From contig JABHZE010000003.1 of the NCBI GenBank assembly GCA_018653485.1, positions 47,399 through 111,398 on the forward strand: a stretch of 64,000 bases of DNA, in the 5' to 3' direction. The position numbers and the translations under genes were made by a program. Shown here piece by piece: positions 3,422 through 64,000 of the stretch; the stretch's first letter is position 1; each line of letters opens with the position of its first letter. The notes below the pieces were generated by a model. The model did not search any database and was not told the DNA's origin. It worked only from the letters and a program-made list of their open reading frames with translations. The DNA comes from an archaeon. GTDB lineage: Archaea > Nanobdellota > Nanobdellia > Pacearchaeales > GW2011-AR1.

Positions 3422-5176
3422 TTACTCCTTCAAAATTTTTCTAATAGATTTGGTTGAAATATGTCTTAATAATTCTTCTTTATCTATATAATAAAGATTC
3501 ATAACTTTTCCAAAATCTTTTAAACTTCTAATTTTATTTTTTATTAAATAACTCATTATTCTCTTTTTTTCTTCTATATTTTGTGCAATTTCATTTTGAG
3601 ACATTCCAGTATTTCTAGTTATATCTTCAAAAAATCTTGAATTTTCACTATGTTTAATTATTCTATCTTCTTCTGGAATCCATCTATATAATATATTTGC
3701 ATAAGCTTTTTCATCTCCTGCTTCAAATTCTGCTACTTGTAATACTCTTCTTATTCCTCTTCTTCTATCTCTAAAAACTACTAAATTAAGATTTACTGCA
3801 TTAAGTAAATTTGGAGGAACACTTAAGGGCGGATTTGTTAATCTAGAAACTGTTTCTGCTGCAGAATCTGCATGAACTGTCGCATATACACTATGGCCTG
3901 TATGCATTGCTTCAAATAAAACCATTGCTTCTTCTTTTCTTCTCATTTCACCCAAAACAATTCTGTCTGGCCTCATTCTTAATGAGTTAATTAATAAATC
4001 AAGCATGCTTACTTCTCCTTTTCCTTCAGGATTTGGAGAACGTGTTACTAATGGACACCAATAAAGAAAATCAGGAAGCATTAATTCTCTTGTATCTTCT
4101 ACACTAATTATTCTATGATTTGGAGGAATAAACGGCATGCAGGCGTTTAGTAAAGAAGTTTTTCCTGATGCTGTTCCACCAGAGATAAGAACATTCATTT
4201 CATATTCTATTGCTAACCATAATAATGATGCAACCTCTATGTCTAGGGTTTTATTATTGATTAAATCTATTATTGTGTATGGGTCTCTTGCAAACTTTCG
4301 GATAGTTATTGTATTTCCTTTAGTAGATATTGGATAAAGTATTGAATTAATTCTGTCTCCAGTTATTAAGTGTGCATCTAATAATGGTGCAAGAACATTT
4401 ATTTGTCTTCCAACTCTTCTTGCAATTATATTTGAATAATTAACTATTTTATCTTCTCTATCAATTTTTAAATTAGATTTTAACCAACCGTATTTTTTAT
4501 GATAAACTCTAATTGATTCTTTTGCAGAAGTTATAACTACTTCTTCTAAATTAACATCATTTACTAAAAATTCTATTTCTCCTAATCCTAACATATCTTG
4601 CATAAGTTTTCCTACTAAGAATTCTTTCATATTTTTTTCAATATTTGGTAATTTTTCTTTTAAAATCTTTTCGGCTTGAATCATAAATCTTTTTTTAATT
4701 TTTAAAAAGGCATTAGGGTCTGTTATCTCATTCATTCCTACTGTTGTAGCGGTTACTAGCTCATTTCTTACTTCATCTAATAAAGAGGCTGTAGCAATAT
4801 TTATTTGAGGAACTTCTAAATTATAAACTGGGCCTGAAGTTGATTTTTGAATTCTTACAACTACCTTTACATTATCTAATAAGATATCATAACTTTCTAA
4901 GGTGCTTCCTTTTTTTTCAATTGGTTTTTCTTTTTGAGGGTGTTTATGATTTGAATTATGTTTTTGTTTATGATTTATATGATTGTTTTTTTGATGGTGT
5001 TTATGATTTGAATTATGTTTTTGTTTATGATTTATATGATTGTTTTTTTGATGATTGTTTTTCTTATTTTGAATCTGTTTGTTCTTCTCATTATTTTGTT
5101 TAGAATCCTCTTTAGGATTTTTATCTTCTTTTTTATTTCTAAATCTAAAAAATCTTTTCTTTTTTTTGTTTGCCAT
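3422..5176 (-). CDS. type II/IV secretion ATPase (TadA/VirB11-like) with a His/Asn/Lys-rich N-terminal repeat
   Basis: NVLISGGTASGKTSLLNACMPFIP Walker A; ISVEDTREL; MRPDRIVLGEMR; HTGHSVYATVHADSA. Confidence 0.92.
   Translation of the reverse strand: MANKKKKRFFRFRNKKEDKNPKEDSKQNNEKNKQIQNKKNNHQKNNHINHKQKHNSNHKHHQKNNHINHKQKHNSNHKHPQKEKPIEKKGSTLESYDILLDNVKVVVRIQKSTSGPVYNLEVPQINIATASLLDEVRNELVTATTVGMNEITDPNAFLKIKKRFMIQAEKILKEKLPNIEKNMKEFLVGKLMQDMLGLGEIEFLVNDVNLEEVVITSAKESIRVYHKKYGWLKSNLKIDREDKIVNYSNIIARRVGRQINVLAPLLDAHLITGDRINSILYPISTKGNTITIRKFARDPYTIIDLINNKTLDIEVASLLWLAIEYEMNVLISGGTASGKTSLLNACMPFIPPNHRIISVEDTRELMLPDFLYWCPLVTRSPNPEGKGEVSMLDLLINSLRMRPDRIVLGEMRRKEEAMVLFEAMHTGHSVYATVHADSAAETVSRLTNPPLSVPPNLLNAVNLNLVVFRDRRRGIRRVLQVAEFEAGDEKAYANILYRWIPEEDRIIKHSENSRFFEDITRNTGMSQNEIAQNIEEKKRIMSYLIKNKIRSLKDFGKVMNLYYIDKEELLRHISTKSIRKILKE
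4941..5054 (-). repeat. 57-bp in-frame tandem duplication encoding KNNHINHKQKHNSNHKH(H/P)Q
   Basis: tgtttatgatttgaattatgtttttgtttatgatttatatgattg occurs at 4941 and again at 4998. Confidence 0.85.
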
Positions 5177-17164: not shown

Positions 17165-17408
17165 TTAAGTTTCTTCAAAGACAATTTATTAAAATCCATT
17201 TTAGAAACTCTTAAACTTAGAGAAATCCCCTTTCTTTAGAAAGGGGTTGGAAGGGAATTTCTCTAGCATCAAAAACCGAAACAAGCCCCTGCATTAGAGA
17301 ATTAAAATTCTCTAATTCTTCAACTCTCTTTTTGATAACGAGTTGAAGCCTTTAGGCAGGGGTAATAAACCGAAGGTTTTTGACAAGTGCATTTTTATTG
17401 TATGTTTT
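17165..17408 (+). ncRNA. structured RNA region including a three-way junction (dphB leader or independent RNA)
   Basis: TAGAGAAAT/ATTTCTCTA enclosing CCCCTTTCT-tt-AGAAAGGGG; CCCCTGC (17286-17292)/GCAGGGG (17356-17362) enclosing ATTAGAGAAT/ATTCTCTAAT and TTCAACTC/GAGTTGAA. Confidence 0.55.
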
Positions 17409-17513
17409 ATCAAAAAAACAATGTGCTACGCACTTGTTTTTAGGATGTTCAAAGATAGGAATTAAATTATCTAGCCACACTTTTTTAAAGTGTGGTTTCC
17501 TATCTTTGACATG
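17409..17513 (+). promoter_or_regulatory. structured leader element copy A (ends at dphB ATG)
   Basis: About 105 nt sequence repeated at 38749-38854 with compensatory changes; ATG at 17511-17513 forms the 3' end. Confidence 0.6.
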
Positions 17514-18230
17514 TTATATATAATAGGATTAGGATTAAATGAGAAAGGAATTTCCCTTGAAGGTTGTGAGGCTCTTAAGAGATGTAAAAAGGTTTACTTA
17601 GAAGGATATACCGTGAATTTTCCTTATTCTGTTAAGGAATTACAAAGAATTGTAGGTGAAAATAGGAAGATCTCTGTTTTAGGTAGGGATGGTGTTGAGG
17701 ATAGTAAGTTGGTTAAGGAAGGGAAGAAAGATGATATATGTTTACTAGTTTATGGAAGTCCTTTATTTGCTACAACTCATATGACTTTGATTTCTGATTG
17801 TAAAAAGGCGAAAGTTAAGGTGAAGATTGTTTATGGTGCTAGTATTTTTGATGCACTTGGTTCTACTGGTTTGCAATTATATAAATTTGGAAAGATTTCA
17901 TCAATGCCTAAATGGCAAAAGAGTTTTACTCCTGATAGTTTTTTAGATTTTGTTATTGAAAATAAAAAGATTGAAGCTCATAGTTTGATTTTAGTTGATA
18001 TTGGATTAGAGTTTAAAGATGCTTTAGAAGAGTTAAAGGTTGCTGGGAAAAATAAAAAGGTGAAATTAGGGAAGATAGTTGTTTGTTCGAGTTTAGGAAG
18101 TGATAAAGGTAAAATTTATTATGGTGAAATTGAGGATTTAATAAAGAAGAAAGTTAAGATGCCTTATTGTTTTATAATTCCTGGAAAGATGCACTTTTTT
18201 GAGGAAGATGTTTTGAAGGGGTTTGAATAA
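17511..18230 (+). CDS. dphB: diphthine synthase
   Basis: MLYIIGLGLNEKGISLEG, YGSPLFATTHMTLI, GLQLYKFGKISSMP; ATG at 17511 fits family N-terminus better than GTG at 17490. Confidence 0.92.
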   Translation: MLYIIGLGLNEKGISLEGCEALKRCKKVYLEGYTVNFPYSVKELQRIVGENRKISVLGRDGVEDSKLVKEGKKDDICLLVYGSPLFATTHMTLISDCKKAKVKVKIVYGASIFDALGSTGLQLYKFGKISSMPKWQKSFTPDSFLDFVIENKKIEAHSLILVDIGLEFKDALEELKVAGKNKKVKLGKIVVCSSLGSDKGKIYYGEIEDLIKKKVKMPYCFIIPGKMHFFEEDVLKGFE

Positions 18231-37161: not shown

Positions 37162-38694
37162 ATGGATAAAATAGAAATAAGTCTTAATCCGAGTGTTCCG
37201 GCACTTCCTAAAATTGAAGATAAAACAAAAATTAATGTTAGATATACTTTGATTTCTCCGTATGTTAGTGTTCATATTTATTGGGATAAAAAATTAGGAG
37301 AATTAATGTATGAAGTTGAAGAGCCGATTTTAGATGAAAATGAAAAAGGATTATTAGATACTATTGAGGTTAGTTTGGGGGAGATGATTAATGTTAATGT
37401 TCTAATTCAGAAAACAAATGAGGCTATGATTGATTATATTAACAAAACTGCTAGATTACTTATTGAAGAACTTGCATTAAAAGTAAGTGATGAGAGTTAT
37501 AAAAAAATATTTTATTATTTGTATCGAGATTTTGTTGGATTAAATGAGGCAGAACCTTTAATAAAAGATTATTTTATTGAAGATATTGAGTGTAATGGTG
37601 CAAATACTCCTGTCTATATTGTTCATAGAATTTATAGAAATATGAGGACAAATGTTATTTATAATTCTATGGATAAATTAGCAAGTTTTGTTGAAAAACT
37701 TGCACAAAGGACTGGGAAATATATTTCATATGCAAGTCCCTTATTAGATGGTAGTTTGCCTGATGGTTCAAGGGTTAATGCAACTTATACAACTGATGTA
37801 ACTAGTAAAGGTCCTACATTTACTATAAGAAAGTTTACAAAAATTCCTTGGACACCTATTCAATTATTAAATATGGGAACTGTTTGTCCTGAAATGCTTG
37901 CATATTTTTGGATTTTATTAGAAAATAAATCTAATATACTTATTGCAGGTGGAACTGCTTCTGGAAAAACAACTCTTTTGAATGCTATTGCTTTTTTTAT
38001 TCCTCCTGAGGCCAGAGTAGTAAGTATTGAGGATACTAGAGAATTAAATTTACCTAGAGAAAATTGGTTGCCCAGTGTTGCAAGAACCTCAATGGGGCAA
38101 TCTAAAACTGGAGAAGTAGACTTATTCATGTTACTAAAAAGTTCATTTAGACAAAATCCAGATTATGTAATTGTTGGTGAGGTAAGAGGTAAAGAAGCGT
38201 TTGTTTTATTTCAGGGAATGGCTTCAGGACACTCTTCAATAAGTACTATGCATGCAGATTCTGTAAATACTTTAATTAAAAGATTAGAAACTCCTCCAAT
38301 AGAATTATCCCCTACTCTTCTTAATACATTAGATGTTGTTGCTATTATGACTCATGCTATTGTAGGTTCTCAGGAAACAAGAAAATTAAGAGAAGTTGTA
38401 GAAGTAGTTAATGTTGAAAATAGTGGGATTGCGTTAACAAATACTCCTTTTAGTTGGAATGCTCGTGATGATGTTTTTTATTTTAAAAAAGATAGTAAAG
38501 CATTTGAAAAAATTGCTAAAAAATATGGTTATACTATTGAAGAATTAAATAAAGATTTTGAATTAAGGGCCAAATTACTTCATGAACTTCAAAATAGAAA
38601 GATTTTTGATTTTAATCAAACTCAAAAGATTGTTAATGAATATCATAAAAATCCTAAAGCTGTTTTAAGTGCATTTGGAATTAAAAGTGATTAA
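37162..38694 (+). CDS. type II/IV secretion ATPase (TadA-like)
   Basis: NILIAGGTASGKTTLLNAIAFFIPPEARVVSIEDTREL, NPDYVIVGEVRGKEAFVLFQGMASGHSSISTMHADS. Confidence 0.94.
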   Translation: MDKIEISLNPSVPALPKIEDKTKINVRYTLISPYVSVHIYWDKKLGELMYEVEEPILDENEKGLLDTIEVSLGEMINVNVLIQKTNEAMIDYINKTARLLIEELALKVSDESYKKIFYYLYRDFVGLNEAEPLIKDYFIEDIECNGANTPVYIVHRIYRNMRTNVIYNSMDKLASFVEKLAQRTGKYISYASPLLDGSLPDGSRVNATYTTDVTSKGPTFTIRKFTKIPWTPIQLLNMGTVCPEMLAYFWILLENKSNILIAGGTASGKTTLLNAIAFFIPPEARVVSIEDTRELNLPRENWLPSVARTSMGQSKTGEVDLFMLLKSSFRQNPDYVIVGEVRGKEAFVLFQGMASGHSSISTMHADSVNTLIKRLETPPIELSPTLLNTLDVVAIMTHAIVGSQETRKLREVVEVVNVENSGIALTNTPFSWNARDDVFYFKKDSKAFEKIAKKYGYTIEELNKDFELRAKLLHELQNRKIFDFNQTQKIVNEYHKNPKAVLSAFGIKSD

Positions 38695-38748: not shown

Positions 38749-38854
38749 ATCAAAAAAACAATGTGCCTTAGGCACTTGTTTTTAGGATGTTCAAGGATAG
38801 AATTAAGTAATCTATCCACACTTTTAAAAAGTTTAGATTCTTATCCTTGACATG
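38749..38854 (+). promoter_or_regulatory. structured leader element copy B (ends at ATG of the 38852 ORF)
   Basis: Near-identical 5' half to 17409-17513; terminal helix caaGgatag/ctatcCttg-type covariation; ATG at 38852-38854 at its 3' end. Confidence 0.6.
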
Positions 38855-39019
38855 ATAGACTTAGAACAAATCCAGATTTTATCGCAATTAATTGAAAATA
38901 CAGAAGTATTATCAAAAAAACTTGAAAAGGCTTATAGTTCCAAAAATTCTGAGAAATTTGAACAAGCTAAAAGGGAAATTATTGAAAATCAGAAAAAAAT
39001 TGAGGGGTTAATAAAATGA
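38852..39019 (+). CDS. small coiled-coil protein (55 aa) in pilus operon
   Basis: MIDLEQIQILSQLIENTEVLSKKLEKAYSSKNSEKFEQAKREIIENQKKIEGLIK, overlaps next gene start (ATGA). Confidence 0.6.
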   Translation: MIDLEQIQILSQLIENTEVLSKKLEKAYSSKNSEKFEQAKREIIENQKKIEGLIK

Positions 39020-40383
39020 GTTTTAATGCGTTAATGGAAAATATTATTCATATGAAAGAGATAGTAAGAGAGTTATATGTTTTTGCAAAACAATTAGATA
39101 CTATGAAAAATCTTGAAACTCAAGGGCAGTATGGGATGGTTGCAGAAACAAGAGAAAAAAGATTATTAGAAGAAGCTATTTCAGGGTTAAGTAATCAATT
39201 AAGAATATTAAATAATTCTACTCCTCAATTAATAAAAGATATAAAATTTTTCAAAGAACTTGAAAGTGGAAAAGGTGTTAAAAGTCAAGAGAAATTTGTT
39301 CAATTAAAATACCATCCTGGAGGAGATAAGGAGAAAGTATCTTTGACTATCTCTGATAAAGATAAAAAAGAATTTTTAGAAAATTTAAGTAAGAGTAATT
39401 TATCTGTGAATAAATTAAAGAAAAAATATTCTGTTGAAAAAAATGCAAAATCAGAGTTTGGAAAACCTAATTATTATGCTAAATTCTCCAATCAATTTTT
39501 TAGAAATTTTTCAAATTCATTGATTGCTAAAGGGTATTTTAAAAAACTTAATAAGGATTTAAGAGAAATAAATTCCCCTTTTGTTGTTGGAACTTATGTT
39601 TCTATGAGTCTGATGAGTATTATTATTATGTTTATTCTAAGTTTATTTGTTTTGTTAACATTATCTTTTTTTGAAATAAGTTTGTTATGGCCTAATTTTT
39701 TTACATTTTCTGAAGAAAATCCTTTTCTTAGATTTTTCAAATTTTTATGGATTCCAGTTATGTTCCCAATTATTGTAGGGGTTATAGCTTATTTTTATCC
39801 TCAGGGAGAAGCTAAAACTCTTGGTGCAAGAATCAATCAAGAACTTCCTTTTGTTGCAATTCATATGTCAGCAATTGCTACTTCTGGAATAGTTCCATTA
39901 AATATTTTTAAAATTATATTAAGAAGTTCAGAATATAAATATTCAAATATTGAATTTAGAAAATTAATGAACCTTGTTAATTTTCATGGGCATGATTTTG
40001 TAACTGCATTAAAGAAAACTGCTAAATCAAGTCCTTCTGTTAAATTGAAAAATCTTTTAAATGGTATGGCTACTGCAATAACTTCTGGAGGAGATTTACA
40101 TAATTTTTTAGATAAACATTCAGAGAGTTTATTATTTGATTATAAATTAGAAAGAGAAAAAAATACAAAGAATTCAGAAACTTTTATGGACATTTATATT
40201 AGTGTTGCGATTGCTGCTCCAATGATTTTTTTAATGTTGTTTGTTATTATGGGAAGCTCAGGTTTTCTTACTGCGTTTATTAATTTAGAAGTTCAGCAAG
40301 TTGGATTGTTAATTATCATGCTCTTAGGATTATTAAATGTGGGTTTCCTTGTGTTTTTGAAACTTAAACAACCTGTTATATAA
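39016..40383 (+). CDS. type II/IV secretion F-family membrane protein (TadC/GspF-like)
   Basis: Follows ATPase; ATSGIVPLNIFKIILRSSEY, MATAITSGGDLHNFLDKHSESLL, TM segments. Confidence 0.85.
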   Translation: MSFNALMENIIHMKEIVRELYVFAKQLDTMKNLETQGQYGMVAETREKRLLEEAISGLSNQLRILNNSTPQLIKDIKFFKELESGKGVKSQEKFVQLKYHPGGDKEKVSLTISDKDKKEFLENLSKSNLSVNKLKKKYSVEKNAKSEFGKPNYYAKFSNQFFRNFSNSLIAKGYFKKLNKDLREINSPFVVGTYVSMSLMSIIIMFILSLFVLLTLSFFEISLLWPNFFTFSEENPFLRFFKFLWIPVMFPIIVGVIAYFYPQGEAKTLGARINQELPFVAIHMSAIATSGIVPLNIFKIILRSSEYKYSNIEFRKLMNLVNFHGHDFVTALKKTAKSSPSVKLKNLLNGMATAITSGGDLHNFLDKHSESLLFDYKLEREKNTKNSETFMDIYISVAIAAPMIFLMLFVIMGSSGFLTAFINLEVQQVGLLIIMLLGLLNVGFLVFLKLKQPVI

Positions 40384-63556: not shown

Positions 63557-63700
63557 TTTAATTTCCTATCACAGAACTCTTCTTCCTTTTGGGTAAAAAA
63601 GAGATGATATACTCCTTTTTAAACTTTAACCCCCTCCCCCTCTTACTACTACTGAAGCCTCGCTTGGGGGTGGGAAACTGACAGATAGGATTGCGTTGAA

Positions 63701-64000
63701 CGTACGATATTAAAAGAAGTGCTTTAGTATTTGGGAGAATAAGAAGAATATCTTATGAACCTTTTAATATCTGCTCAAAGAAGTTTTTGCTGGGGGTGGG
63801 AAAAATACATTGAGGACTAAAAAATTGGGGGAAGCAAAAATTTGGGCGAAGCCTTTGAGCGTACGATATTAAAAGAAGTGCTTTAGTATTTGGGAGAATA
63901 AGAAGAATATCTTATGAACCTTTTAATATCTGCTCAAAGAAGTTTTTGCTGGGGGTGGGTTAAACCTAATTGCGGACTAAAAAATTGGGGGAAGCAAAAA
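63701..64000. repeat. 159-bp tandem direct repeat (two units, second truncated by window end)
   Basis: cgtacgatattaaaag...gctgggggtggg identical over 100 bp at 63701 and 63860; variable 13/14-nt block; conserved ggactaaaaaattgggggaagcaaaaa tail. Confidence 0.9.

Follow-up and report, generated by a model that had tools for sequence, protein, structure and literature searches.

What kind of sequence ends exactly at the first codon of two different genes in one archaeal genome? In the window, the whole stretch of 64,000 nt of DNA that was analysed, from a Pacearchaeota-like DPANN archaeon (G000), a repeat of 104 nt (copy A, 17409..17512) abuts a dphB-like gene (TP_methylase, diphthine synthase; 17511..18230, plus strand), and a related repeat of 105 nt (copy B, 38749..38853) precedes an ORF of 55 aa (38852..39019, plus strand). 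Both repeats are functionally read on the minus strand. On the plus strand copy A runs ATC...CAT, and its last AT together with the G at 17513 forms the dphB start codon (ATG, 17511-17513); the ATG of the small ORF (38852-38854) likewise takes its AT from the last two bases of copy B. The copies are 86% identical, and a DNA search of the window's genome matched copy B to copy A with an E value of 7e-29. The initial annotation had described a duplicated, structured repeat with an ATG at the end of each copy, and this description was accurate, as were the stems that it quoted (GTGC-tac-GCAC in A, GTGCC-tta-GGCAC in B). Both copies fold strongly and well beyond chance, copy A at -41.4 kcal/mol with a z score of -9.3 and copy B at -29.1 kcal/mol (z -4.0). 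The A-U to G-C change between the closing helices of A and B was also correctly reported; a further change in this lower helix, G-C to G-U, went unmentioned. No Rfam family matches either repeat, and a tRNA is the sole Rfam match in the window.

The repeat belongs to a family that extends well beyond this locus. We searched the genome and its relatives with a covariance model built from 18 copies and found seven copies in G000 (930 kb in 6 contigs, estimated completeness 85.6%; E at most 1.3e-7) and matches in 38 of the 132 genomes of the order. The model also matched some genomes outside the order but within the class. When about 85,000 species genomes were scanned for an exact pattern, the only matches were in metagenome-assembled genomes (MAGs) carrying the label Pacearchaeota or Nanoarchaeota and in one called simply "bacterium". 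The exact pattern is absent from IMG/VR, and thus there is no sign of a viral carrier. Elements range in size from about 60 to 190 nt, and one related genome, G080, carries at least 35 near-identical full-length copies. Our literature searches found no description of this element family.

Two readings had been offered for the repeat, a translational cis-regulatory element and a mobile structured leader. Under the first, plus-strand RNA would hold the AUG in the left-end stem (P2), and the leader would have been duplicated and selected before several genes, which is consistent with the strong RNA fold and with both window copies ending exactly on a start codon. The wider family is distributed differently. 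In the set of about 160 distinct copies, a few of which have their last base set one too early (corrected for the guide test below), a G follows the terminal AT in only 13 of 160 and the other 147 do not end on an ATG. In nine of those 13 copies the ATG does begin an ORF of 55 aa or more. Neighboring genes are arranged co-directionally (36), oppositely (25), divergently (23) or convergently (18) around the copies, and there is no significant orientation bias toward either the right-hand gene (67 same, 49 opposite) or the left-hand gene (63 and 56). Many copies are not upstream of genes, some lie inside genes and interrupt them, and the element is absent from all 14 upstream regions of dphB genes compared from relatives. 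Copies A and B, described initially as heading two genes, are two of seven copies in the genome, and most members of the family have no start codon after them. Genome-wide copies without a relation to start codons, which the initial annotation had named as evidence against regulation, are largely what we observed. The "mobile structured" part of its proposal is retained, and the view that the element is by nature a translational regulator, given the 13 of 160 copies with an ATG and the lack of orientation bias, is highly improbable.

The borders of the element are consistent with movement. The 35 copies in G080 share the borders ATC...CAT and are followed on the right by AA in 35 of 35 cases, whereas the left flank is unconstrained; across the family, the second flank base is A on the plus strand in 139 of 151 copies. 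Deleting a copy in silico while leaving one AT behind yields an ORF of 120 aa or longer across the junction for 21 of 150 copies; the two remaining frames of the reconstructed empty sites give 7 and 5. Pfam domains cross the restored junction in trpD, ADP-ribosylglycohydrolase, GNAT acetyltransferase, HEPN and Y1_Tnp genes. The empty sites therefore restore genes, as precise excision would predict. Judged from these comparisons, the family is mobile and non-autonomous, with exact borders. A DDE-transposon MITE that duplicates a 2-bp AT target would account for the AT on both sides and the single AT kept in the empty sites; however, the ends do not form terminal inverted repeats (ATCAAAAA versus ATGYCAAG), the target is constrained on one side only, and internal guide bases covary with the flank, and we see almost no chance that this explanation is correct. 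In G080, one element copy (L173) was found inserted into the Y1 transposase gene of another insertion sequence.

On the plus strand the order of the element's parts is ATC-AA, stem 1, bulge, hairpin, an 8-nt loop, the return of stem 1, AG, GATG, YTC, stem 2, hairpin, the return of stem 2 and RCAT. Both termini have a potential partner in the central GATG, whose GAT could pair with the initial ATC and whose ATG could pair with the final CAT. Across 84 distinct aligned copies, stem positions are paired in 95.8% of cells, two-sided changes occur in 37 of 40 pairs, and double-change cells number 625, compared to 159 when shuffled; sliding the partners by one base reduces pairing to below 50%. With one pair excepted, G-U makes up about 1% of paired cells, as counted from the covariation table. 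The scarcity of G-U pairs is a further point against an RNA leader: it is low for RNA and fits selection on DNA, which is suggestive only. Full copies read on the minus strand contain AAACC...CTTTAG...GG twice, forming two subterminal hairpins in the same orientation. The complete minus-strand arrangement is a host TNAT (the left cleavage site CL, usually TTAT), a left hairpin preceded by its guide GL, a right hairpin preceded by the guide GR (CAAA), and the end TGAT (the right cleavage site CR).

Several copies depart from this plan. In L130, L136 and L147 (G011), L220 and L222 (G137), L043 (G035) and L105 (G121), extra hairpin modules lie between the stems, all at one point (GGATGC^CTC), giving multi-hairpin elements; these modules are possibly nested insertions of other small elements. 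Four copies of G011 (L140, L142, L146 and L147) carry a further palindromic insert (GGTTTTTTGCCACAGCTAAAAAATCGCCTGCTGGCGA) at the tip of the right-end hairpin. In L032 (G013) and L046 (G012), which are nearly identical between the two genomes, the second stem is quite different (GGATACCAAGCTAAAAAAGA...) and its GGAT start is kept.

The layout of hairpins and short guides allows a direct comparison with IS608, which inserts 3' of TTAC and has the guide AAAG 5' of its left hairpin; in the IS608 structure, guide base 1 pairs with target position -3 and base 2 with -4 (PMC5934647). From the published IS608 pairs TTAC/AAAG and TCAA/GAAT we infer that guide base 4 matches target position -1. Used without adjustment, the IS608 rule predicts the guide CAAA at the right end (TGAT) and, among the left targets, AAAA for TTAT, TAAA for TAAT, GAAA for TCAT and CAAA for TGAT. 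Among copies with a scorable right-end hairpin, the predicted guide base is present in 101 of 106, and the plus strand begins with ATCA in 104 of 106. At the left end, complementarity between the first base of GL and the flank base holds in 50 of 62 distinct copies, where permutation gives 31.6 on average; a value of 50 was reached in 0 of 100,000 permutations and, when permutation was confined within genomes, in 4 of 20,000. Mutual information with the flank base has its maximum exactly at the guide base (0.51, with 0.30 the next highest value). The plan and the match of guide to target recur in four copies from other orders of the class. Some of the 12 copies of 62 that break the rule may reflect decay after insertion or detection errors, of which one is evident (L030). 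Sites for a different recombinase, either integron attC-like or of an IS607-type serine transposase with an AT core, would also be expected to form bulged folded structures, and the 2-bp AT at both borders is compatible with them. However, the data fit the rule predicted from IS608, and neither integron attC sites nor the IS607 class are known to use a 4-nt guide beside a hairpin, so this explanation is extremely unlikely.

We consider it very probable that the repeat is an IS200/IS605-type element that is non-autonomous and MITE-like, works as single-stranded DNA of the minus strand and is guide-targeted, with a putative Y1 mobilizer. Mobility, borders, gene restoration, the one-sided target, the stems and the covariation of guide with target can be read from the sequences compared, and we infer a single-strand intermediate and a Y1 transposase. 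In such a cycle, guide bases would pair with the cleavage sites CL and CR, a Y1-type TnpA supplied in trans would cleave 3' of both TNAT and TGAT, the donor would be sealed precisely, and the resulting circle would be inserted 3' of a new TNAT chosen by GL.

Much of this plan is shared with IS608 and ISDra2, members of the IS200/IS605 group that encode a Y1 HUH transposase, TnpA. These elements also insert 3' of a retained tetra- or pentanucleotide without a long target duplication, and have subterminal hairpins in the same orientation with a guide tetranucleotide 5' of each. The repeat family differs in lacking an internal tnpA, in being only 60-190 nt long, and in its targets (TNAT) and right end (TGAT). 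In addition, each of its hairpins is nested in a long covarying outer stem, and the central GATG can pair with both termini. Archaea are known to harbor PATE-type palindromic elements, which are non-autonomous and related to IS200/IS605. REPs and REPINs, spread by a domesticated TnpA-REP (RAYT) instead of an IS200/IS605 transposase, are another point of comparison: they too are short, high-copy, palindromic repeats with bulged stems that are thought to move as single-stranded DNA, and guide-like bases are believed to take part in REP cleavage as well (PMC8266576). In contrast, REPs have GTAG/CGTC-type tags, units of 20-40 nt that are often in inverted pairs, and C|T cleavage, whereas the repeats studied here lack a GTAG-type tag, use the guides AAAA, TAAA or GAAA together with CAAA, have a precise 4-nt target motif, and are two-domain elements of 60-190 nt whose two hairpins share one orientation. 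A REP/REPIN-like origin is accordingly improbable.

If the repeats are IS200/IS605-type elements, their transposase would act in trans. We detected no Y1 gene in G000 or in several element-rich genomes, all incomplete MAGs in which repeated IS genes assemble poorly. Y1_Tnp was found in some element-bearing genomes and not in others, and its presence does not track that of the element. When G080 was searched for separated ends or for a longer, autonomous version, only full-length copies of 117 nt and short, weak matches were found, and a search of 18 genomes for the TnpB zinc ribbon gave nothing above the cut-off. Autonomous Y1 insertion sequences do occur in these archaea (L150, L158 and L148). 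Of their right ends, 8 of 9 conform to the guide rule, the CTTTAG-type hairpin tip recurs in several of them, and CL of the L148 class reads TTAT by eye, as in the repeat family. They differ in encoding TnpA and in their end pairs, TTAA/TCAT or TTAT/TCAC rather than TTAT/TGAT. The ends of the G080 Y1 element also differ from those of the repeat family; in IS608, however, it is the guide rather than the protein that reads the cleavage sequence, so this difference leaves the G080 element eligible as a mobilizer.

These features can be recognized in the two window copies. In copy A, CR is at 17409..17412 (minus TGAT, plus ATCA). The right-end stem P1 (17409..17446) was assigned by comparison with full copies such as L085 and retains only the GTGC-tac-GCAC hairpin; the apical right hairpin (IPR) and the right guide have been lost. 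The left-end stem P2 (17445..17512), with the outer helix CAAAGATAG.../...CTATCTTTG, contains the left hairpin IPL (17475..17495, CCACACTTTTTTAAAGTGTGG) and the guide GL (17496..17499; plus TTTC, minus GAAA). By the IS608 rule this guide predicts C at target position -3, and the left flank (17511..17514; minus ACAT, plus ATGT), which overlaps the dphB start codon, has C at -3 as predicted and A rather than the usual T at -4. Copy B has also lost its right hairpin and guide, and its left hairpin is decayed (IPL at 38816-38836 and guide at 38837-38840, together 38816..38840). The fourth base of its guide as written on the plus strand (ATTC) is C, predicting G in the flank, and the observed flank is ATGA. 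Because the right-end hairpin and guide are gone, both copies are probably immobile relics.

The guide also offers an explanation for the position of these copies at start codons. The guide of copy A is GAAA, and the decayed guide of copy B has the same first base; since a guide beginning with G specifies TCAT (ATGA when read on the plus strand), A and B end on start codons. Copy B has exactly ATGA, and copy A has ATGT. The start codon survives because one AT is kept on each side of the element, and insertions elsewhere in genes were presumably removed by selection. Copy A may affect translation of dphB incidentally. A stronger proposal is that selection has favored subfamilies whose GAAA guide directs them to TCAT, and thus to ATGA start codons of the opposite strand, adding a structured leader while the 2-bp overlap keeps the start codon. 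We regard this as unlikely, though conceivable; if true, one guide base would pick a harmless landing site, and translation of the following gene might be affected.

Copy B lies in a secretion/pilus-type gene cluster, between the gene for a secretion ATPase of the FlaI/PilB type (37162..38694, plus strand; type assigned from the sequence rather than by a family scan) and, beyond the 55-aa ORF, a gene for a T2SSF/TadC-like membrane protein (39016..40383, plus strand). In relatives, the small ORF is conserved beside the ATPase gene or the membrane-protein gene. Other repeats were observed in the window. Directly upstream of copy A is a second, different putative IS200/IS605-type element (17215..17384, plus strand) with the flank TTAA, the guide AAAT, the right guide CAAG and the right end TGAC. 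Its guides are complementary to its cleavage sites at 4 of 4 tested positions, and no further copy was present among the loci fetched. Repeat units about 160 nt apart (GGACTAAAAAATTGGGGGAAGCAAAAA...) occupy 63696-64000, at the contig end, and imperfect direct repeats of 57 nt and 24 nt occur at 4926-5063.

The IS200/IS605 plan is known, and the family is new in its nested covarying outer stems, its shared central GATG and its own set of guides and targets. The family shows that single-strand elements using guides are widespread among DPANN archaea, whose mobile elements have been little described. The family constitutes a natural experiment, across many archaeal genomes, on the DNA-guided targeting derived from laboratory work on IS608: a change of guide base is accompanied by a change of landing site, also within single genomes. 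It supplies natural guide variants already paired with their targets. It also provides a plain explanation for structured leaders that resemble regulators.
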